Shown in pieces: positions 7,504 to 15,863 of a stretch of DNA of 64,000 bases; positions within the stretch are counted from its first letter, which is position 1; each line of letters opens with the position of its first letter. Under the pieces are notes generated by a model. That model was not told the origin of the DNA, did no database searches, and worked only from the letters and a program-made list of their open reading frames with translations. The stretch covers positions 806,001-870,000 of the forward strand of contig NZ_VFMY01000001.1 of the NCBI RefSeq assembly GCF_006715305.1, in the 5' to 3' direction. This stretch comes from Arthrobacter sp. SLBN-100 (GTDB taxonomy: Bacteria; Actinomycetota; Actinomycetes; Actinomycetales; Micrococcaceae). Both the position numbers and the translations under genes were made by a program.

Positions 7504-8310
7504 CTAACGACGGCCCGCGCTCTCCGTTGACAGCAAAAGTGCCTCATCCAGCACTTTCCCGAAGTTGGCGGCATCGTGGGCAAACCTGCCCAGGAAGAGC
7601 CCCGAGACGCCGTCCAGCGTGGGCAGGAGCCCTGGTTTTGCCGAGCCGCCATAAATAATCGGCAGGCTCCGCAGGGCTGCACCCGCCTCCGCTTCATGGG
7701 CGCCGAGAAGGGCGCGGAGTGAATGGATTACAGCCGAAACGTATTCGGCGCCGGCGGGTTCTGCTGCCCCAATGGCCCATACGGGCTCGTAGGCGATGAG
7801 GAGCCGGGATGCCAACTTCCAGTCCCCGCCTACGGCGTCGTTGATTTGCTGGTGGACGAACTCGGCCGCCGCCGCTGGTCCCGCTTCTGCCATGTCCCCG
7901 CGGGTTTCCTCACCAACGCACAGCAGGGCCGTGATCCCTGCTGCGTCGGCTGCCTGGACCTTGCGCGCGATCACTTCGCTGTCTTCGCCGAAATGCCGCC
8001 GCCGTTCGGCGTGCCCGATCTCCACCAGGGCAACTCCCAGTTCCGCCAGGAGGGAAGGCGATACCTCCCCTGTCCAGGGACCGTCAGCCCAACCACAGTT
8101 TTGGGCGCCGAGGCGCACCGGCGATCCTGCGAGTATTGTGCCGGCAGCGGGAAGCACTGGGAAAGCGGGAATCACAAACGGGACCACCCGTCCGGCCGCA
8201 AGGGCCGGACGGGTGTCCACTTCGTGCCGGGCCTGCGCGAGCCATTCCATGGATTCCCGGTAACCCAGGTACATCTTGGTGCTGACCCCGATGTACAAGG
8301 TGTTGGTCAT
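7504..8310 (-). CDS. Triosephosphate-isomerase-like enzyme, probable L-erythrulose-1-phosphate isomerase (LerI/EryH type)
   Basis: A TIM-fold isomerase of 268 residues, started at ATG 8310 with AAAGGA 7 nt upstream. The three catalytic residues of triosephosphate isomerase are in place: Lys12 (GVSTKMYLGY), His100 (IGHAERRRHFGED) and Glu175 (AYEPVWAIG). The phosphate-binding IIYGGSAKPG and LGRFAHD follow. The loop sequences differ from glycolytic TpiA (which has NWKMN and GHSERR). They are of the type found beside dihydroxyacetone-kinase-like and RpiB-like genes, where the enzyme converts L-erythrulose 1-phosphate to D-erythrulose 4-phosphate. It is the last gene of the cluster, 42 bp after the transporter. 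A role as a second glycolytic TpiA is the alternative. Confidence 0.85.
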   Translation of the reverse strand: MTNTLYIGVSTKMYLGYRESMEWLAQARHEVDTRPALAAGRVVPFVIPAFPVLPAAGTILAGSPVRLGAQNCGWADGPWTGEVSPSLLAELGVALVEIGHAERRRHFGEDSEVIARKVQAADAAGITALLCVGEETRGDMAEAGPAAAAEFVHQQINDAVGGDWKLASRLLIAYEPVWAIGAAEPAGAEYVSAVIHSLRALLGAHEAEAGAALRSLPIIYGGSAKPGLLPTLDGVSGLFLGRFAHDAANFGKVLDEALLLSTESAGRR

Positions 8311-8352
8311 GGCCGGTTCCTTTCCGGAGGCGCGTTCAGGCACGGCTGGGAC

Positions 8353-9705
8353 TCATTTGGTATCGAGCAGATCGTCCGCCTTGTTGCGGAACCGCTTGGT
8401 GGCGTACATCATGGCGGCGGCCAGGAACGGAAGCACACCCAGGGCAAAGACGCCCGCGGAGCCGGTGGAGTCGGCCGCGATCCCGTTGACGCTGGTGCGC
8501 AGGATTGGCGCAACAAAGCCGCCGAGGTTTCCGAGGGAGTTGATCAGGCCGATGCCGGCGGCTGCGGCCGTGCCCGTGAGGAACGCTGTGGGGTAGGACC
8601 ACGCGATGGGCCCGATGGAGAGGAAACTGCAAACGGCCAACGTGATGAAGATGATGCCAAGCGCCGGGAGGTGGTTTGTGCCGGCCCACGCGGAGCCGAA
8701 GATGCATAGGCCGGTGGAGATAAACAGCCCGTTCCCCCAGATCCGGCGGCGGACCAGGGTGTTTGCGGCCTTGCCGATGAGGTAGCAGGCGAAGATGCCA
8801 AAGAACCACGGGATGGCTGCCATCAGGCCGACGGCGAGACCCACCTTTTGGCCTGTCAGCTGGGCCACCTGCTGCGGCAGGTAGAAGGTGACTCCGTAAA
8901 CGGCGATCTGCAGGCAGAAGTAGATGATGGTGAAGTACCAGACCTTGCCGTTCTTCATGGCTGCAAGCACGCCGCGCGGCCCTGTTTCTTCCTTGACGGT
9001 GTCTTCCAGATCCATGACATCCAGCAGTGCTTTCTTTTCAGCGGCGTCCAGGAACTTGGCGTCCTGGGGGCTGTTGATCAGGAAGAAGTACGCCGCGACG
9101 CCCGCCAGGACTGCGAGCATGCCTTCGACGAAGAACATGACCTGCCAGCCCTGGACTCCGGGCACCTGGTCACCGATGTTGATCAGCCAGCCGGACAGCG
9201 GTGCGCCCATCATCTGCGAGAACGGCTGGGCCAGGTAGAAGATGGCGAACATCTTCACCCGGACTTTGTTGGGGAACCAGGCGGCCAGGAACATGATGAC
9301 GCCCGGGAACAGGCCGGCTTCGGTCACACCCAGCAGGAAACGCAGGATGATGAAGGACGCCTCGCCCTGGACGAACGCGAAGCAGGCGGACACGATGCCC
9401 CAGGTGATGGCGATCCGGGCCAGCCACACCTTCGCCCCGAACTTCGTCAGGAGCAGGTTGCTGGGGATTTCGAACAGGGCGTAGCCGATGAAGAAGATCC
9501 CGGCGCCCAAGGCATAGGCACCGGCGGTGATGCCCTTGTCCACGCCCAGGGCGGCTTCGGCGAAGCCGACGTTGGTGCGGTCCAGGAAGGCGACCACATA
9601 CAGGATCACCAGCATGGGCATAAGGCGGAAGGACGCCTTGGAAATCGCCGATTTCAGGACCGGCGAGTCCAGGAGCTCCTTGGTGGATGTTGCGGATAGG
9701 GACAT
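8353..9705 (-). CDS. MFS transporter, anion:cation symporter type (probable sugar-acid importer)
   Basis: A 450-residue protein with about twelve hydrophobic segments. The first half carries VVAFLDRTNVGFAEAAL and FFIGYALFEIPSNLLLTKFG, then LLGVTEAGLFPGVIMFLAAW, typical of the ACS branch of the major facilitator superfamily (glucarate, galactonate, tartrate and phthalate permeases). The substrate is therefore more likely an organic or sugar acid than a neutral polyol, which is an inference from the family. The start is ATG 9705 with GAGGAG 5 nt upstream. It lies between the small membrane protein gene and the TIM-like gene and should be induced with them. Confidence 0.9.
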   Translation of the reverse strand: MSLSATSTKELLDSPVLKSAISKASFRLMPMLVILYVVAFLDRTNVGFAEAALGVDKGITAGAYALGAGIFFIGYALFEIPSNLLLTKFGAKVWLARIAITWGIVSACFAFVQGEASFIILRFLLGVTEAGLFPGVIMFLAAWFPNKVRVKMFAIFYLAQPFSQMMGAPLSGWLINIGDQVPGVQGWQVMFFVEGMLAVLAGVAAYFFLINSPQDAKFLDAAEKKALLDVMDLEDTVKEETGPRGVLAAMKNGKVWYFTIIYFCLQIAVYGVTFYLPQQVAQLTGQKVGLAVGLMAAIPWFFGIFACYLIGKAANTLVRRRIWGNGLFISTGLCIFGSAWAGTNHLPALGIIFITLAVCSFLSIGPIAWSYPTAFLTGTAAAAGIGLINSLGNLGGFVAPILRTSVNGIAADSTGSAGVFALGVLPFLAAAMMYATKRFRNKADDLLDTK

Positions 9706-9746
9706 CAAAACTCCTCTTTGAGTACTTTGAAGACGTGCTTGGGGTT

Positions 9747-9917
9747 CTAGCCGGAGACCACGATCATCACGACCCCCGCGATGCAGGCAAGGATGCCCGC
9801 GGCGAGGTAGATGGTGCGCGCCCGGGTCCAGGAACCAAGCCCGGTGGTTCGGGGTGTTGCTGCTGATGAAGGCCGTACCGGTGAAAGCCGTGCCAGTCGT
9901 TTGCTGTTATGTGCCAA
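9747..9917 (-). CDS. Small single-span membrane protein in the catabolic cluster (56 residues)
   Basis: A short gene that a length filter would miss. TTG 9917-9915 is preceded by GGAAGG at 6 nt and lies 12 nt after the SDR stop. The frame runs 56 codons to TAG at 9749-9747. The product begins MAHNSKRLARLSPVRP, has a basic, Ser/Thr-rich N-terminal half, and ends in one hydrophobic segment (YLAAGILACIAGVVMIVVSG) that stops exactly at the C-terminus. A tail-anchored small protein directly before an MFS gene suggests a small transporter subunit or accessory factor. That role is inferred; I recognise no family. Confidence 0.7.
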   Translation of the reverse strand: MAHNSKRLARLSPVRPSSAATPRTTGLGSWTRARTIYLAAGILACIAGVVMIVVSG

Positions 9918-9929
9918 GGCCGACCTTCC

Positions 9930-10697
9930 TTAATGCATGTAGAGCCCGCCGTCCACATTCAGCGTCTGGCCGGAGATGTATCCGGCGTCCTCGCTGATGA
10001 GGAAGGCGATGGCTGCGGCGATGTCACGCGTGGACCCGACCCGGTTGACCACCAGGTCCTTCGTCAGTTCGTCCTTGCGTTCCTGGCTCAGGGTGCCGCC
10101 CATGATGTCCGTGTCGATCGGGCCGGGGGAAATGGCGTTGACGGTGATGTCGTACTCCCCCAGTTCGCGGGCGGTGGAGCGGGTCAGTCCGATCACGCCG
10201 GCCTTTGCCACAGAGTAAGGCGTCTTGGAGTAGGTGCCGCCGCCACGCTGGGCAGAAACCGAGGAGATGTTGACGATCCGGCCGATCCGGTTCTTCACCA
10301 TGGACTCGGCCACCCGGCGCGTGGCGTAATGGACGCCATTGAGGTTGATGTTGAGAACCCGGTCCCATTCGGCCCCGTCCAGCTCCAGGTAAGGAACGGG
10401 GGAACTGACACCGGCAACGTTGGCAAGGGCCACGATCTGGGGCAGCTCCGCCTCGATCGAGTCAACGGCGAAGCGGACCGATGCTTCGTCTGCCACGTTG
10501 GCACCCACACCGTGGGCCTGGACGCCGTATTGGGACGACAATTCCTTGGCCGCGGCCTTGCACAGGGCGTCATCGAGGTCAATGATGCCGATGTTCCAGC
10601 CTTGGGCGGCAAGGTAGTTCGCGGTGGCCCGGCCGATGCCGCGCTCGGAGACTGCTCCGGTGATGATGGCCGTGCGTTGTGCGGGAAAACTGCTCAT
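9930..10697 (-). CDS. Short-chain dehydrogenase/reductase (SDR), probable sugar or sugar-acid oxidoreductase
   Basis: A classical SDR of 255 residues. The cofactor motif is TGAVSERGIG (residues 13-22); ANVAGVSSP stands for the usual NNAG, with catalytic Ser around 145-146 (NISSVSA), Tyr161 and Lys165 (YSVAKAG), and the C-terminal SGQTLNVDGG. IIDLDD after the second strand suggests NAD rather than NADP. ATG 10697 with AGGAG 5 nt upstream is better than an upstream in-frame start. It resembles polyol and sugar-acid dehydrogenases, and D-threitol dehydrogenase of the erythrulose pathway is also an SDR. The substrate cannot be read from sequence. The small membrane protein and transporter genes follow it. 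Confidence 0.88.
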   Translation of the reverse strand: MSSFPAQRTAIITGAVSERGIGRATANYLAAQGWNIGIIDLDDALCKAAAKELSSQYGVQAHGVGANVADEASVRFAVDSIEAELPQIVALANVAGVSSPVPYLELDGAEWDRVLNINLNGVHYATRRVAESMVKNRIGRIVNISSVSAQRGGGTYSKTPYSVAKAGVIGLTRSTARELGEYDITVNAISPGPIDTDIMGGTLSQERKDELTKDLVVNRVGSTRDIAAAIAFLISEDAGYISGQTLNVDGGLYMH

Positions 10698-10725
10698 GGT
10701 TGCTCCTGGGGAAAGACGGAATGTG

Positions 10726-11718
10726 TTAGCTGATGGGCGCGGGGCCGAGGTCTTCAAGCAGCTTCTGCATGGCGACGTAGGCCTTGTTGCGGTACGCGAT
10801 CAGCTCGGGTGTGCGCTCCGCCGGGACGTTGAGGAAACCCGCTCCGGTCTTGGTGCCAAGTTTTCCGGCTTCCACCAGGTCGCTGAGGATCTTCGGGGTG
10901 GCAAACCGCACGGGGAAGTCGGTCTGCAGGGACTTGTAGCAGAAGTTGTACACGTCCAGCCCGGCCATGTCCGCAATCGCGAACGGGCCGAAGAAGGGCA
11001 GCCGGAAGCCGAAGGTAGTGCGGACCAGGGTGTCCACATCGTCCGCCGTGGCAATGCCCTGCTCCACGAGCTGCGCAGCTTCGTGGAACAGCGCGTACTG
11101 CAGGCGGTTGAGCACGAAGCCGGTGACGTCCTTGACTACCGCAGTCTGCTTGCCGGACGCGTGGACCAGCTCACGGACCGCGCCGACCGTACTCGCCGAA
11201 GTGCCGGCGTGCGGAATGATTTCCACGCCCGGGATGAACGGCGACGGGTTGGAGAAGTGCACGCCGAGGAACCGCTCCGGGTTGGTGACTGGCCCGGACA
11301 GTTCGGCGATGGAGATGGTGGAGGTGTTGGAGCCGATGATGGCGTCCGGGCTGGCGGCGGCGCTGATGCGGGCCAGGGTCTGGTGCTTGATGGCGATGAC
11401 TTCGGGGACGGCTTCTTCGATGAAATCCGCGTCCGCCACGGCCTCCTCGATGTCCTTGGCAGCCCAGAGGTTCTGCTTCAGGATTTCGGTGGAACCCTCC
11501 GGGAACAGGCCGTCGGCCACGAACTGGTCCGATTCTGCGAGGAGGCGTTCATAGTTGCTTTGGGCCACCTCGGCCGACACGTCCGCGAGTGCCACGCGTG
11601 CCCCGCCGAGGGCCAGGACCTGGGCGATCCCGCCGCCCATGTAGCCGGACCCGACGACGGCGATCTTCCGGCCGCCGTTTGTGTCCGCTGTGGTGGGTGT
11701 GTGTGCTGTTTCGCTCAT
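10726..11718 (-). CDS. 3-hydroxyacyl-CoA-dehydrogenase-family oxidoreductase, probable sugar-acid 3-dehydrogenase
   Basis: A 330-residue NAD-dependent dehydrogenase. It has an N-terminal Rossmann domain (VVGSGYMGGGIAQ, residues 22-34), the SNTSTISIAEL segment, the catalytic-type His in GVHFSNPSPFIPGVEII, and the helical C-terminal dimer domain (VTGFVLNRLQYALFHEAAQL). Stand-alone members of this family without a hydratase include L-gulonate 3-dehydrogenase and carnitine dehydrogenase, which oxidise the 3-hydroxyl of free hydroxy acids. In this cluster a role on a sugar acid is more likely than on an acyl-CoA; that is inferred. The ATG lies 2 nt after the upstream stop. Substitution of the usual HFFNP by HFSNP is notable. 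Confidence 0.85.
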   Translation of the reverse strand: MSETAHTPTTADTNGGRKIAVVGSGYMGGGIAQVLALGGARVALADVSAEVAQSNYERLLAESDQFVADGLFPEGSTEILKQNLWAAKDIEEAVADADFIEEAVPEVIAIKHQTLARISAAASPDAIIGSNTSTISIAELSGPVTNPERFLGVHFSNPSPFIPGVEIIPHAGTSASTVGAVRELVHASGKQTAVVKDVTGFVLNRLQYALFHEAAQLVEQGIATADDVDTLVRTTFGFRLPFFGPFAIADMAGLDVYNFCYKSLQTDFPVRFATPKILSDLVEAGKLGTKTGAGFLNVPAERTPELIAYRNKAYVAMQKLLEDLGPAPIS

Positions 11719-11720
11719 GT

Positions 11721-12203
11721 TCAGACTGCCTTTGTGTAATCGGGTTCGTAGGAGCAGATGGCGTCCACCTTGGCGGCGGAGGCTGAGGTCTCGTCGAAAC
11801 GGTAGTCGAGCCATTCGCCTACCAGTTTCTTGGCCAGTTCAAGGCCGATGACGCGCTGGCCCATGGTGAGGACCTGGGCGTTGTTGCTCAGGACGGACCG
11901 TTCGACGGAGTATCCGTCGTGGGCGGTCACAGCACGGATGCCCGGGACCTTGTTGGCGGCGATCGCTACGCCCAGCCCGGTGCCGCAGATCAGCAGGGCA
12001 CGGTCCGCCTCGCCCTCGGCCACTTTCCGGGCGGCGTCGACGGCGACATGCGGGTACGCTGTCGTGTCGTTCGCACTGACGCCCACGTCCACTACGGACG
12101 CTACACGGGCGTCTGCCTGCAGCAGCGCCTTCAGCGCCTCCTTGTATTCGACGCCGGCTTCATCGTTGCCGATGACAATGCGCCACAGTTGGTTCGTGGT
12201 CAT
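11721..12203 (-). CDS. RpiB/LacAB-family isomerase, probable D-erythrulose-4-phosphate isomerase (DerI type)
   Basis: A 160-residue protein of the RpiB family. The catalytic Cys73 lies in [20 protein letters not shown], followed by [20 protein letters not shown] and TMGQRVIG. The segment [15 protein letters not shown], in place of the HND segment of classical ribose-5-phosphate isomerase B, is typical as I recall of the erythrulose-4-phosphate isomerases (EryI, DerI). These form D-erythrose 4-phosphate, which enters the pentose phosphate pathway. The gene overlaps the kinase gene by four bases (ATGA), consistent with coupled translation. A role as ordinary RpiB is the alternative. Confidence 0.85.
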
Positions 12204-13957
12204 GCTGGGACTCCGTTTCCGGCCGCTGCGGCCAGGTCTGAATCGACGGTCAGTTGTGAATCGATGTAGTGCGAGATCCGGGCGGCGATCAGTCCGAAGG
12301 AAACAGCACCGGGATCCGGGTGGCCGAGGCTCTTTTCCGCCAGCGGACGTGCCCTGCCCTTCAGCGGCCGCAGCCCGGCCGTCCGCGCTGCCGCGGACTC
12401 AGCTGCCGCAGCGGCTGCCGCCAATGCCTTATCGACGGGAGCGCCGCCGTCGAGCTCTGCCAGGAATGCGTCCCGGAACGGAAGGAGGGCGTCCACCATG
12501 GTCTTGTCCCCGGCGTCGGCCTTGCCCAGGTCGGTGATTGCTCCGGCGAAGGCGTTGACTGCGGCGGCGGCGTCGGAGGCGCCGTAGATTTCCTTGTTGC
12601 CAAGCGCGTGGCCGGCTGCGATAACCGCAGAGCCCCACAGCGCGCCCGATGTACCGCCTGCGCGTTCGCTCCAGGCCTCCCCCGCAGCAGCCAGGATGCG
12701 GGCGACCGATGAACCGGACGCAGCTTCGGCTGCCGCGGCTGCGGCCTCCACGCCGCGCCGCATGCCGATTCCGTGGTCGCCGTCGCCTGCGATCGCATCC
12801 AGCTTGCCGAGTTCCTTTTCATGCTCGACGACGACGTCCCGCACCTGGGCGAGGACCGCCGCTGCCTGCCGGCCAAGTTCTGCCGCAGCAGGGGCGGGCT
12901 GTTCCACCTCGGCCGTTCCGGCGTCGTCCATCTCCGCCTTGGCGCGGGGTGCGCGGGCTGACATGCTCCCCTTGCGGAAGGCCGGGGTGTCGGCCGGGGC
13001 TGCCCAATAGCGCTCCAGTTCGTCGTCCAGCCACAGCAGGGTGAGGGAGAGGCCGGACATGTCCAGGCTGGTGACCAGCTCGCCGCACTCCGGTTCAACT
13101 ACAGTCAGGCCGGCGGCGGTGAGGAGCTGTTCGATCTTGCCGAACAGCAGGAACAACTCGTCGTACTTGACTGTCCCCAGGCCGTTGACGATTGCCACCA
13201 CGCGGCCGCCGGCATCTTCCGGTTTGTCGTTGAGCAGCTTCGAGACCAGGAGTTCGGCGAGCTCCGAGGCCGTGGGCATGGGGTGCTCAGAGATTCCGGG
13301 CTCGCCGTGGATCCCCAGGCCCAGCGACATCTGGCCGGACGGGACATGGAACAGCGGATCACTCGCGCCGGGAAGCGTGCAGCCGTCAAACGCCACGCCA
13401 AGTGAGCGCGTGCGGTGGTTGGCCTTGATGGCCAGCCGCTCGACGTCGTCAAGGTTCAGGCCGGCTTCGGCCGCAGCGCCCGCGACCTTGAAGACCGTCA
13501 GGTCCCCGGCGATGCCGCGGCGCTTCTCAAGCTGGTCGATGGGTGCGCTGGCAATGTCATCGGTCACGGTGACCGTCCGCGTCTCGATGCCCTCCGCGTT
13601 GAGCCGGAGCTGGGCCTGGCCAAAATGCAGGACATCGCCGGCGTAGTTGCCGTAGCTGAGCAGCACCCCGCCACCGGCGCTGGCTGCCTTGGCCACGCGG
13701 TACACCTGTCCGGCCGCGGGCGAGGCGAACATGTTGCCGCAGGCGGACCCGGCGGCGAGGCCGGGGCCAACGAGGCCTGCGAACGCGGGATAGTGTCCGG
13801 AGCCGCCCCCGACCACCAGGGCAACCTGGCCGGCCGGCATCTCAGTGGAGCGGACCACGCCGCCGTCGACCCGGACCACGTACCCGCGGTTGGCCGCCAC
13901 GAAGCCGTCCAGTGCCTCATCCGCGAAGTCAGCGGGGTTGTCAAAAATCTGAGTCAT
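12200..13957 (-). CDS. DhaK-DhaL fused kinase, probable L-erythrulose kinase (LerK type) or dihydroxyacetone kinase
   Basis: A 585-residue ATP-dependent kinase. The DhaK domain (about 1-330) has [14 protein letters not shown] at 49-62, [10 protein letters not shown], and His217 in LGIHGEP, which binds the keto group of the substrate as a hemiaminal. A linker rich in Ala, Glu and Pro (335-360) leads to the DhaL domain, with the Mg-ATP motif [16 protein letters not shown] (388-403) and [11 protein letters not shown]. Fused ATP-type DAK enzymes phosphorylate dihydroxyacetone, L-erythrulose or D-erythrulose. The neighbouring TIM-like and RpiB-like isomerases favour L-erythrulose. ATG 13957 has AGGA close upstream. 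Confidence 0.88.
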
Positions 13958-14015
13958 GGTTCCTCGTTGAATCCTTGTTGGTAATTTCGTATCCGGGCTC
14001 GATCACCGGTTTCAA

Positions 14016-15020
14016 TCACACACTGGTGAGCTCAACGGCGGTGGGCTGCTGCCGCCCCTGGGCCACCTGGCTCTTGCCGAGCGCGTAGCCGTCCGTCTTG
14101 GGGAGCACATGGCGGCGCAGGTATTCCTGGTTGCTGGCTGTCACGCTGAGGCCGTCACCGCCGTAGTGCTCCGTGCAGAGGATGCCCTGGAAGCCAACGG
14201 ACAGGGCAAGTTTGAACGCCTCACGGTAGTTGATGAGGCCGCTTTCCATCGGGGCCGGCATGGTGACATACATGTCGCGGGCCACGTCCTCGTCCCGGAT
14301 GTAGTTCTTCATGTGCCAGTAGTTGGAGTAGGGCAGGGTCTTCGCCACCATCTCACGCCAGTCCTCGATGGGCCGGTGGAGCCGGATCAGGTTACCGAGA
14401 TCGGGATTAAGTCCAACGTTTGCCAGCCCGATGTCCTGCACGAGCCGCACAGACGAATCCGCGGAGCCAAGGTAGGTGTCCTCGTACATCTCGAGCGACA
14501 GGAGGACGCCCACCTCGGCGGCGTGCCGGCCCAGCTCGCGCAGGCGGGAGACTGCATGATCCCACGCTTCCTTGTCCCCGGCCGGATCCTTGTAGCCTTC
14601 AACCGTCCAGAACCAGAGCTGCTTTTGCTGCTCGGCCGTGATGGCCTGGTGGAGCCCGAATGACACAACCTCACAGCCCAGTTCCGCAGCGGCGTCGATG
14701 GTGCGGTGGCTGTAGGCAAGGTTGGCTTCCCAGTTGCCTTCCTCGATGACGCTGCGGCGGATTGCGGAGATGACCGGCAGGCCGATGCCCACCTCTTCGG
14801 CTGTCTGCTTGAACTCGGCAAGTCGTTCCCTGCCCAGGTCGCCAGGGCGGACCCAGCTGTCAGTGAGGTCTGCGTTCGCGAAGCCTGCCTCCTTGACCTC
14901 CGTCAGGACTTCTGCCCAGAGGGAAGCATCGGCCTCATTGACATGTACTCCTGATGCGTCCATGGAGGGGAACTGCAGCAACGCTGCCGTGATGGGCCAG
15001 TTACCTGCTGTATAGCTCAA
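14016..15020 (-). CDS. Xylose-isomerase-like TIM barrel protein, candidate sugar-acid decarboxylase or epimerase
   Basis: A 334-residue AP-endonuclease-2/xylose-isomerase-like TIM barrel. The expected divalent-metal ligands are Glu177 (LLSLEMYEDTY), Asp207 (LNPDLGNLIRL), His236 (NYWHMKNYIRDED) and Glu284 (ILCTEHYGGDG). The family includes sugar-phosphate epimerases and, as I recall, 3-oxo-isoapionate decarboxylase (OiaC), which releases L-erythrulose for LerK-LerI-DerI. Those three partners are encoded next to it, so a decarboxylase is the attractive reading, but it is an inference. The start is TTG 15020, since no ATG with an SD fits. This is the first enzyme gene behind the operator at 15048-15057. 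Confidence 0.8.
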   Translation of the reverse strand: MSYTAGNWPITAALLQFPSMDASGVHVNEADASLWAEVLTEVKEAGFANADLTDSWVRPGDLGRERLAEFKQTAEEVGIGLPVISAIRRSVIEEGNWEANLAYSHRTIDAAAELGCEVVSFGLHQAITAEQQKQLWFWTVEGYKDPAGDKEAWDHAVSRLRELGRHAAEVGVLLSLEMYEDTYLGSADSSVRLVQDIGLANVGLNPDLGNLIRLHRPIEDWREMVAKTLPYSNYWHMKNYIRDEDVARDMYVTMPAPMESGLINYREAFKLALSVGFQGILCTEHYGGDGLSVTASNQEYLRRHVLPKTDGYALGKSQVAQGRQQPTAVELTSV

Positions 15021-15047
15021 GTGCTTGCTCGTTTCCTAGATCGTCTT

Positions 15048-15057
15048 TCCTATAGGA
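15048..15057. promoter_or_regulatory. Candidate GntR operator 1, perfect palindrome TCCTATAGGA
   Basis: A perfect 10-bp palindrome lies 27 bp before the start of the TIM barrel gene. It sits downstream of a consensus TTGACA, where the -10 region should be. Its core CCTATAGGA recurs upstream of the GntR gene itself. A repressor bound here would occlude RNA polymerase. Confidence 0.7.
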
Positions 15058-15076
15058 TTTACTATCCAGCAAATGT

Positions 15077-15082
15077 TGTCAA
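15077..15082 (-). promoter_or_regulatory. -35 box of the catabolic operon promoter
   Basis: A perfect TTGACA on the minus strand, 57 bp before the TIM barrel gene. No good -10 box lies at 17 bp; the best candidates overlap the operator palindrome. The promoter probably depends on, or is masked by, the regulator. Confidence 0.5.
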
Positions 15083-15117
15083 GATCACGCCTGATGCAGG
15101 AGGGTTCTTAGTGTGGT

Positions 15118-15846
15118 TTAGCTTTCCGGAGCGGCAGCGATCGCCCTGGAGCGGACGTGTTGAATGTGTGCCGCCATGGCCGCTTCTGCTTTCCCGGGAT
15201 GACCGGCGGAAATAGCATCCAGAACAGCTTCATGCTCGGCTATGGCGCACTCGGCGTCCGTGATGCCCACTCCCCCGAAAAGCCGGAACCGCTGGATTTG
15301 GCCGCCCAGAGCCGAATACGCGGCCTCCATGAACTGGTTTCCGGTCTGCTGCGCAATGAGCTGGTGGAACCGCTCGTCTGCCTCCAGATAGTCCTTGAAC
15401 TCCGCGAAGGCCGGTCCCCGCGGAGCGGACTTCAGGTCCTCAACGGCCTTCTTCAACTCCGCCAGGCCCCCCTGGTCCATGCGTTCGCAGGCAAGCCGGG
15501 CATTGACCGGCTCGATGGCCAGCCGTGCCTCCATCAGTTCGGCAAAATCTTCCCGGGTGAAGACCGGGGCCACCCGGTAGCCTTTCAGCGCCACCCGGCG
15601 GACCATTCCGGTGTGCTCCAGCCGCGCAAGCGCTTCGCGGACGGGCGTGGGCGAAACGTCGAGATCCCGTGCAGTGCCGTCGATGCTCACCGCGGACCCC
15701 GGCGCCAGCCGGCCGTCCATGAGGGAGGCCAAGAGCTCGGTGTAAACGTGGTCGGCCAGCACCTGGCGGTTCACTGCGCGGCCGGAACGGCGGGAACCGG
15801 CCTGCTCCAGTGGCGTGGCGTCGGTGCTGTCGAAGGCTTTCTGCAT
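15118..15846 (-). CDS. GntR-family transcriptional regulator (FadR/FCD subfamily)
   Basis: A 242-residue regulator. The winged helix-turn-helix spans about residues 30-95 (ADHVYTELLASLMDGRLAPG, VSPTPVREALARLEHTGMV). A helical FCD effector domain follows, with the metal/ligand residues expected of the family (MEARLAIEPVNARLA, EADERFHQLIAQQTGN, EHEAVLDAISAGH). FCD regulators usually sense organic or sugar acids, which fits the acid-type transporter in the cluster. The gene has its own operator 7 bp before its ATG, suggesting autoregulation. It is oriented with the catabolic operon, 97 bp upstream of the TIM barrel gene. Confidence 0.92.
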   Translation of the reverse strand: MQKAFDSTDATPLEQAGSRRSGRAVNRQVLADHVYTELLASLMDGRLAPGSAVSIDGTARDLDVSPTPVREALARLEHTGMVRRVALKGYRVAPVFTREDFAELMEARLAIEPVNARLACERMDQGGLAELKKAVEDLKSAPRGPAFAEFKDYLEADERFHQLIAQQTGNQFMEAAYSALGGQIQRFRLFGGVGITDAECAIAEHEAVLDAISAGHPGKAEAAMAAHIQHVRSRAIAAAPES

Positions 15847-15853
15847 AGTTGAA

Positions 15854-15863
15854 TCCTATAGGG
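15854..15863. promoter_or_regulatory. Candidate GntR operator 2 (TCCTATAGGG)
   Basis: The sequence matches nine of the ten bases of the palindrome at 15048-15057 and lies 7 bp before the GntR start codon, over the expected ribosome-binding region. Two such sites, one per transcription unit of the cluster, are best explained as binding sites for this regulator. Confidence 0.65.

Follow-up and report, generated by a model that had tools for sequence, protein, structure and literature searches.

A stretch of 64,000 nucleotides (nt) of the Arthrobacter sp. SLBN-100 genome (contig NZ_VFMY01000001.1, positions 806,001 to 870,000; hereafter the window) carries an eight-gene run that we suggest to be a GntR-controlled unit for the breakdown of a sugar acid, probably of five carbons (C5). 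In this proposal, to which we assign a probability of about 0.55, the acid would be oxidised at C3, a xylose-isomerase-like protein (PF01261; hereafter the barrel) would decarboxylate the resulting 3-keto acid to L-erythrulose, and an end module of one kinase and two isomerases would finish the conversion to D-erythrose 4-phosphate. The end module is known; what is different here is the barrel family and its dehydrogenase partners. A description of this gene set was not found among the matches listed in our searches of Creative Commons (CC)-licensed papers.

According to this scheme, an anionic sugar acid would enter through a major facilitator superfamily (MFS) carrier, and a 3-hydroxyacyl-CoA-dehydrogenase-like (3HCDH-like) enzyme would oxidise it with NAD at C3. 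From the 3-keto acid, the barrel, presumably metal-dependent, would remove CO2 to yield L-erythrulose. Judging from tree placement, the DhaK-DhaL kinase would then form L-erythrulose 1-phosphate, the TIM-like enzyme would convert it to D-erythrulose 4-phosphate, and the RpiB-like enzyme would release D-erythrose 4-phosphate. The activities of ApnO, OiaC, LerK, LerI and DerI, after which we name such roles, are reportedly those given in papers on apiose and tetritol breakdown.

All eight gene families named by the original prediction are present as intact open frames in one co-linear run on the minus strand (15846-7504; Table 1), and the catalytic triad of the TIM-like protein is indeed complete, with Lys kept (GVSTKMYLG near the start), His in GHAERR and Glu in AYEPVW. 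The gene set is no chance assembly, because the barrel, kinase, RpiB-like and 3HCDH-like genes recur at 50% identity or more in 78 of the 80 nearest loci, and all eight genes are present in 61 of them. These 80, almost all of them from Arthrobacter or genera close to it, are the best matches among 509 relatives of the barrel in the collection of named genomes. The two exceptions, L044 and L053, are missing the RpiB-like and 3HCDH-like genes from the available stretch. Gaps from the barrel gene onward, with a small open reading frame (ORF) included, measure 58, -4, 2, 28, 12, 41 and 42 nt, and given these short distances everything downstream of the regulator is probably transcribed as a single unit. 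Scanning for promoters gave no sigma-70-like site, and terminator-like sites were not in excess.

The assignment of the kinase, TIM-like and RpiB-like genes to the module type that leads from L-erythrulose to D-erythrose 4-phosphate is well supported at the sequence level. We computed a first set of trees from 65 kinases, 61 RpiB-like and 48 TIM-like sequences without the window's proteins, and a second set to which these were added. In all three trees, proteins from ApnO clusters fell among members from barrel clusters; in the kinase tree, seven ApnO-cluster and seven barrel-cluster members formed a clade (support 0.999) nested among barrel-cluster kinases. The kinase and RpiB-like protein of a third locus in the same genome (L170, see below) sit in these same trees. 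Once added, the window's proteins fell in the barrel-cluster part of each tree. The kinase did not cluster with dihydroxyacetone kinases, its path lengths being 1.35-1.62 to ApnO-cluster members versus 3.52 to the DhaK of its own genome; the corresponding values were 1.21-1.46 versus 4.5 (own RpiB) for the RpiB-like protein and 2.14-2.67 versus 3.5 (own triose-phosphate isomerase, TPI) for the TIM-like protein. In the trees that include the window's proteins, the common ancestor of these and the ApnO-cluster members received a weak support value or none.

Paralogues in the same genome, which holds three DhaK-DhaL fusions and one split DhaK/DhaL, gave a similar ranking. The window kinase is 60% identical to the fusion at the ApnO locus, 55% to the third fusion, and 38% and 40% to the split DhaK/DhaL. 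For the RpiB-like protein, identities are 71% to the ApnO-locus copy, 56% to the third-locus copy and 32% to the presumed canonical RpiB; for the TIM-like protein, they are 46% to the ApnO-locus copy and 35% to the TPI, a separate gene that by reading is placed after gap and pgk. The TIM-like protein has Ser in place of the catalytic Asn that precedes Lys in TPI. LerI and EryH share this exchange. Among the TIM-like proteins compared, Ser occupies the position in 36 of 37 from barrel loci, six of six from ApnO loci and four of four rhizobial ones, with Asn in the one canonical TPI examined. The LerK/LerI/DerI-type module of the original prediction is thus supported by the three trees, the paralogue identities and the Asn-to-Ser exchange, with the RpiB-like protein as its probable DerI-type member.

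Against protein models, the kinase scored 349 bits with the glycerone kinase equivalog TIGR02361, whose cut-off of 575 it did not reach. Based on this score, the paralogue identities and the tree placement, we rejected a dihydroxyacetone kinase as the main reading of this enzyme. The RpiB-like protein exceeded the cut-off of TIGR02133 (204 versus 168 bits) and stayed below that of the rhizobial DerI model NF051858 (156.7 versus 240 bits); deep nodes of the tree are weak. A rhizobial plasmid record bears an OiaX label beside genes for a four-carbon acid sugar kinase, a TIM-like, an RpiB-like and a PGDH_C protein, and the RpiB-like protein encoded there scores above the DerI model's cut-off, both of which agree with the roles named above for the module enzymes.

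D-apionate degradation is said to proceed via ApnO and OiaC (reported by Carter et al. in 2018), and the original prediction had likened the barrel to OiaC. This identification was not supported. The only match of the genome to PF16896 (PGDH_C, ApnO) is on the contig of the operon at a distance of 2.29 Mb (C1:3111494-3111958), in a locus with MFS, kinase, RpiB-like, TIM-like and ApnO genes and a short PF01261 protein, which we take as OiaC from its linkage to ApnO. This ApnO-linked barrel was found in eight of ten labelled ApnO loci, and the copy of L149 (264 residues) aligns with the window barrel at 29% identity over 106 residues only. Moreover, labels for ApnO or its linked barrel were absent from the surroundings of the barrel in all of 58 diverse Actinomycetes loci, comprising 18 regions from an even sample of the class and 40 regions chosen from 39 of 99 barrel-bearing genomes of the order, with genes labelled by tblastn. 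Taking the ApnO-linked protein as OiaC, we therefore rejected this identity for the window barrel; its gene neighbourhood on its own would have led to a wrong name in this case.

Profiles of the window barrel and the ApnO-linked barrel (8 sequences) align at 4e-11, with LEMYED/LETYEQ, NPDLGN/LDPGN, HMKN/HVKD and EHY/EHW in register and the E/D/H/E, YE, K and EH positions matching; with single sequences as templates, the values for the window barrel profile were 2e-5 for a barrel of L064 and 0.07 for EryC. When this profile was run on the 27 PF01261 places of the genome, its best match other than itself was the protein at 3703469 (41.6 bits), followed by the ApnO-linked barrel (29.0 bits); the ApnO-linked profile in turn had the window barrel as its best match other than itself (19.9 bits). 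The two barrels are thus distant cousins, not orthologues, and their similarity weakly favours a shared kind of chemistry. By sequence and fold, the window barrel belongs to the family of PDB entry 5TNV, a xylose isomerase-like protein of Mycobacterium smegmatis (305 bits; 45% identity over 282 residues in a structural alignment), to which it is a close match over its full length. The title of the PDB entry states no function, and no paper naming 5TNV turned up in the CC-licensed literature searched.

At least one of four dehydrogenase families lies near the barrel in 50 of the 58 diverse loci. A 3HCDH-like gene occurs within 7 kb in 37, PdxA in eight and an isopropylmalate-type enzyme in one; a HIBADH-like gene within 2 kb, in five, was counted only where a 3HCDH gene was not near, so its exclusivity is by definition. 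We therefore based the test of mutual exclusion on 3HCDH versus the PdxA and isopropylmalate types. The latter two were seen in none of the 37 loci with 3HCDH and in nine of the other 21 (Fisher p 2.8e-5, with kinship left uncorrected). TTT carriers accompany eight of these nine loci and none of the other 49, and three annotated rhizobial clusters are of the PdxA-plus-TTT kind. In the order, the 3HCDH-like protein is encoded in 83 genomes, and the barrel accompanies it in 79 of these, versus 20 of the remaining 313 (the counts for the two proteins each come from 396 genomes, taken as the same set; all our genome counts ignore kinship). None of the four dehydrogenases was found at L114, L120, L122, L183, L196, L205, L209 and L210, of which L122 is only 4 kb long, being a fragment, and L183 and L209 come from a single genome. 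L114 and L120 hold barrel relatives (50% and 45%) whose neighbours, by reading, are genes for a nucleoside-like ABC importer and class III aminotransferase-like and adenosine-deaminase-like proteins.

In PdxA, isopropylmalate dehydrogenase and 3HCDH enzymes, the hydroxyl group that is oxidised sits beta to a carboxyl or thioester carbonyl. As this reaction is common to these families, their shared product would be a beta-keto acid, usable by a decarboxylase. The short-chain dehydrogenase/reductase (SDR), present in 17 of the 58 loci under our labelling rule, is for that reason regarded as an accessory enzyme; at L205, where an SDR-like match was obtained and a 3HCDH gene was not, an SDR may stand in for 3HCDH. 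Of the pair of dehydrogenases to which the original prediction had given a part, the 3HCDH-like enzyme is thus the common partner, and the SDR is missing from many relatives.

Import of an acid, as originally proposed, fits the carriers near the barrel in the 58 loci (MFS in 12, ABC permeases in 11, TTT in eight, GntP in six), which include types suited to acids. As a D-erythrulose route would not need LerI, we infer that clusters with the LerI type serve L-configured acids and clusters without it D-configured ones. We surveyed 16 genomes, chosen because their barrel locus had no TIM-like gene, with one TIM-like query: 13 gave a single match, presumably TPI, two (G037 and G419) held a LerI-like protein, and G211 had two TPI-level matches. 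The window has the LerI type, so an acid yielding L-erythrulose fits; because loss of CO2 from a 3-keto pentonate turns C4 of the acid into C3 of erythrulose, L-pentonates qualify. On this sequence-based reasoning, a C5 acid appears the most likely substrate, with linear L-pentonates as the first candidates. Searches for 3-keto pentonates under several spellings had no match in the CC-licensed literature.

Neighbouring genes provide some further clues. At L179, an SMP-30 lactonase-type gene (PF08450) follows the dehydrogenase gene. Glycosidase genes adjoin ABC-type and some other clusters, with GH51 in the stretches of L108, L119, L182 and L195 (tblastn labels), GH3 in L175, L178 and L195 (Pfam) and L193 (clustering), and GH39 in L118 (Pfam), L198 and L207 (both by clustering). 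L-arabinose, which GH51 would point to as the source sugar, was kept as a lead only, since three of the four GH51 clusters are without the LerI-type isomerase needed for an L-sugar. According to PMC6225978, ascorbate breakdown yields threonate and 2-oxo-L-threo-pentonate. Threonate-type genes (tblastn labels) lie near several relatives of the barrel, which, together with these products, makes L-threo-pentonates candidate substrates.

With regard to control, 69 of the 80 nearest relatives have CCTATAGG upstream of the barrel gene at a distance of no more than 170 nt. Of the 11 loci without an exact copy, nine (L060, L062-L068 and L070) have the barrel, kinase, RpiB-like and 3HCDH-like genes and lack those for the SDR, MFS, TIM-like and GntR proteins; the others are L027, where the site has a single mismatch, and L031. 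A GntR regulator near the barrel was found at none of these 11 loci (at L068, a match of 31% lies at a distance of 9 kb), and a similar GntR gene is present near the barrel in most of the 80 nearest and many of the 58 diverse loci. The site is present with the regulator unlabelled at L015, L021 and L038, where the DNA starts close to the barrel, and at L041. In the whole genome, the pattern WCCTATAGGW occurs at two places, one of them at this operon. The candidate operator and the GntR regulator vary together across the relatives, and a second CCTATAGG ahead of the GntR gene suggests autoregulation.

Several relatives have a different surrounding. At L060 and at L064, a set that we read as a LacI-like gene, an ABC importer, a pair of Gfo/Idh-like genes, ThuA and another PF01261 protein lies upstream, and only 2 nt separate it from the run of barrel, kinase, RpiB-like and 3HCDH-like genes. 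Pfam confirmed PF01261 and ThuA at L064, where the first Gfo/Idh protein scored 357 against the levoglucosan dehydrogenase model and did not reach its cut-off of 650. In genome G281, an ABC/Gfo/ThuA set that is 83-93% alike lies beside an ApnO cluster (L144, L242). At L106 (8934-9704), a gene of the Asp/Glu racemase family (PF01177) is located between the regulator and the barrel gene.

Decarboxylation by the barrel has to be weighed against a role as a ketose or keto-acid epimerase or isomerase, with CO2 lost spontaneously or on the dehydrogenase. The barrel would then set the stereochemistry of erythrulose or shift a 2-keto to a 3-keto acid, in the manner of OtnI, which we take to be a 2-oxo-tetronate isomerase. 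Its four NCBIfam matches, all weak, are indeed to L-ribulose-5-phosphate and D-psicose 3-epimerases and IolE (24 bits at a cut-off of 200 and 21 bits at a cut-off of 300 for the L-ribulose-5-phosphate and D-psicose 3-epimerase models, respectively, neither reached), and the folds ranked after 5TNV include UlaE and ketose 3-epimerases, among them 5h1w, solved with L-erythrulose. A structure search with a model of the barrel (mean pLDDT 70) did not separate decarboxylase from epimerase. In addition, enzymes of the PdxA and isopropylmalate dehydrogenase families usually decarboxylate unaided. However, the commonest partner, the 3HCDH type (37 of 58), is not known to do so, and a separate decarboxylation step is therefore still needed; moreover, the match to the ApnO-linked profile (4e-11) is better than those to EryC (0.07) and the other barrel (2e-5), the last two being single-sequence templates. 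Taken together, an epimerase or isomerase seems unlikely to us, if with an appreciable residual chance. We give a decidedly smaller chance to an alternative route for apionate or an isomer, in which the 3HCDH-like enzyme would oxidise isoapionate to 3-oxo-isoapionate and the barrel would decarboxylate it, convergent with OiaC. Such a route is suggested by downstream enzymes of the same clades as those of ApnO clusters, by the distant profile similarity of the two barrels and by the ABC/Gfo/ThuA set, which adjoins an ApnO cluster in G281 and, in like form, lies 2 nt from the barrel gene in L064. It fits poorly with the lack of any ApnO or ApnO-linked barrel label near the 58 barrel loci, and with the separate maintenance of both loci, 2.3 Mb apart in the present genome (G000) and on different contigs in G281.

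Acids of other lengths fare worse. If a C4 tetronate (threonate or erythronate) were oxidised at C3 and decarboxylated, the product would be dihydroxyacetone, and the kinase would form dihydroxyacetone phosphate. The kinase is of the Dak1/Dak2 family, a DUF1537 kinase and threonate-type HIBADH-like genes are found in the stretches of L106, L112, L184, L186, L204, L208 and L212, and the rhizobial clusters would need no isomerase for such a route. But the kinase stays under the glycerone kinase cut-off (349 versus 575) and groups with ApnO-linked kinases, and the RpiB-like and non-TPI TIM-like enzymes would have no task, which makes a tetronate quite improbable. A C6 acid, whose decarboxylation would give a pentulose for the kinase to phosphorylate and leave the RpiB-like protein as a true ribose-5-phosphate isomerase, we regard as very improbable. 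The RpiB-like protein does pass TIGR02133, named "ribose-5-phosphate isomerase" (204 versus 168 bits), and the 3HCDH relatives with structures include lambda-crystallin, presumably a C6 acid 3-dehydrogenase; yet the presumed canonical RpiB is another gene (32%), the ApnO-locus copy is 71% identical, and the LerI-type TIM-like enzyme has no place in such a pathway. We thus prefer C3 oxidation of a C5 acid followed by decarboxylation on the barrel.

Among known systems, the tetritol pathways (presumably LerK/LerI/DerI in Mycobacterium, and the genes on pRL12 that we take to be named eryH/eryI in rhizobia) share the end module, in which TIM-like and RpiB-like enzymes lead to D-erythrose 4-phosphate. 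Unlike here, their substrate is a polyol, and the pRL12 cluster is without a 5TNV-family barrel and these types of acid dehydrogenases. The ApnO/OiaC apionate system has a DhaK-DhaL kinase and TIM-like and RpiB-like isomerases of related clades as well as a PF01261 barrel beside a dehydrogenase, and the ApnO locus of this genome likewise has an MFS carrier and a GntR regulator. In contrast, the window operon has a 3HCDH-like dehydrogenase and an SDR and no ApnO, its 334-residue barrel is of another family, and both loci coexist in one genome. PMC6302742 quotes the RLP step on 3-oxo-isoapionate and the 2018 apiose reference. The third locus of the genome (L170, C1:3411106-3419356) is an erythrulose-kinase-like cluster with no TIM-like gene; it contains, with several names given by reading, a GntR regulator, two half transketolases, an MFS-like carrier, a 275-residue PF01261 protein, an SDR 44% like that of the window, a DhaK-DhaL fusion and an RpiB-like gene. 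This locus could perhaps encode an apulose-type pathway.

The Weimberg and Dahms oxidative pentose pathways (PMC6336799) start from pentonates, as proposed here, but dehydrate them to 2-keto-3-deoxypentonate, whereas we propose decarboxylation of a 3-keto acid; the operon proteins had no match to Weimberg/Dahms dehydratases in NCBIfam and Pfam. More speculatively, the operon might represent a third oxidative pentose/pentonate route, which we hold to be less likely than not, made of a stereochemistry-matched 3-dehydrogenase (of 3HCDH, PdxA, HIBADH or isopropylmalate type), a 5TNV-family 3-keto pentonate decarboxylase, and an erythrulose kinase with isomerases leading to D-erythrose 4-phosphate, in which clusters with the LerI type might serve L-pentonates and the others D-pentonates.

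The barrel was detected in 19 of 394 genomes evenly sampled from the class (E <= 1e-20), in 99 of 396 genomes sampled in the order, and in 29 of 37 genomes of the same genus among the genomes listed, its own included. Plasmid records matching the barrel number 94, of which 75 are from Sinorhizobium. A 1.35-Mb plasmid of Arthrobacter sp. StoSoilB13 (NZ_AP024648.1:733845-741164) carries barrel, 3HCDH-like and TIM-like genes of the operon type, so the operon is not always chromosomal. In the window, it is flanked by core genes, on one side by nusB (NCBIfam match) plus efp and aroB (sequence reading), and on the other by a PrsW gene (Pfam match) plus pyrR (sequence reading). Arthrobacter sp. OV608 (L001), the top match among the named genomes, shows identical gene order at the same place; nusB is present in seven of the 80 nearest loci, so the genomic place of the operon is not fixed.

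Some features of the operon concern single genes. The MFS protein scored 265 bits against TIGR00893 and did not reach its cut-off of 395. A 56-residue ORF, found by tblastn in 51 of 80 relatives and containing a membrane segment as read from the sequence, had no match in an NCBIfam search of the peptide and is perhaps a small subunit of the MFS carrier. The TIM-like gene has an alternative GTG start at 8343.

Table 1. Features of the putative sugar acid operon (positions in the window)
Feature	Position	Strand	Matches and presumed role
FCD-type GntR regulator	15118..15846	-	PF07729 102 bits, PF00392 44.6 bits; presumed pathway sensor
PF01261 barrel, 334 residues, TTG start	14016..15020	-	Presumed 3-keto sugar acid decarboxylase
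DhaK-DhaL fusion kinase	12200..13957	-	PRK14479 751.6 bits, trees; presumed L-erythrulose kinase (LerK type)
RpiB-like isomerase	11721..12203	-	TIGR02133 204 bits, trees; presumed D-erythrulose-4-phosphate isomerase (DerI type)
3HCDH-type dehydrogenase	10726..11718	-	PF02737 163 bits, PF00725 82 bits; presumed sugar acid 3-dehydrogenase
SDR dehydrogenase, accessory	9930..10697	-	PF13561 212 bits
56-residue one-segment membrane peptide	9747..9917	-	Open frame between SDR and MFS genes
MFS transporter, anion:cation symporter type	8353..9705	-	PF07690 141 bits, TIGR00893 265 bits; presumed acid importer
TIM-like isomerase	7504..8310	-	PF00121 163 bits, Ser for TPI Asn, trees; presumed L-erythrulose-1-phosphate isomerase (LerI type)
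Candidate operator TCCTATAGGA, 5' of barrel gene	15048..15057	.	Contains CCTATAGG at 15049-15056
Second CCTATAGG	15855..15862	.	8 nt upstream of GntR start codon

If the proposed pathway is correct, it would assign a reaction to the structurally solved 5TNV barrel family, which is present in a quarter of the sampled genomes of the order (99 of 396) and on rhizobial plasmids, and it would explain why one core is paired with dehydrogenases of four families. Soil and plant bacteria would also gain an added route from sugar acids to D-erythrose 4-phosphate. Should the third pentonate route also prove true, L-xylonate, L-lyxonate and L-arabinonate would be example substrates of the LerI clusters, and many plant-derived acids would funnel into one core.

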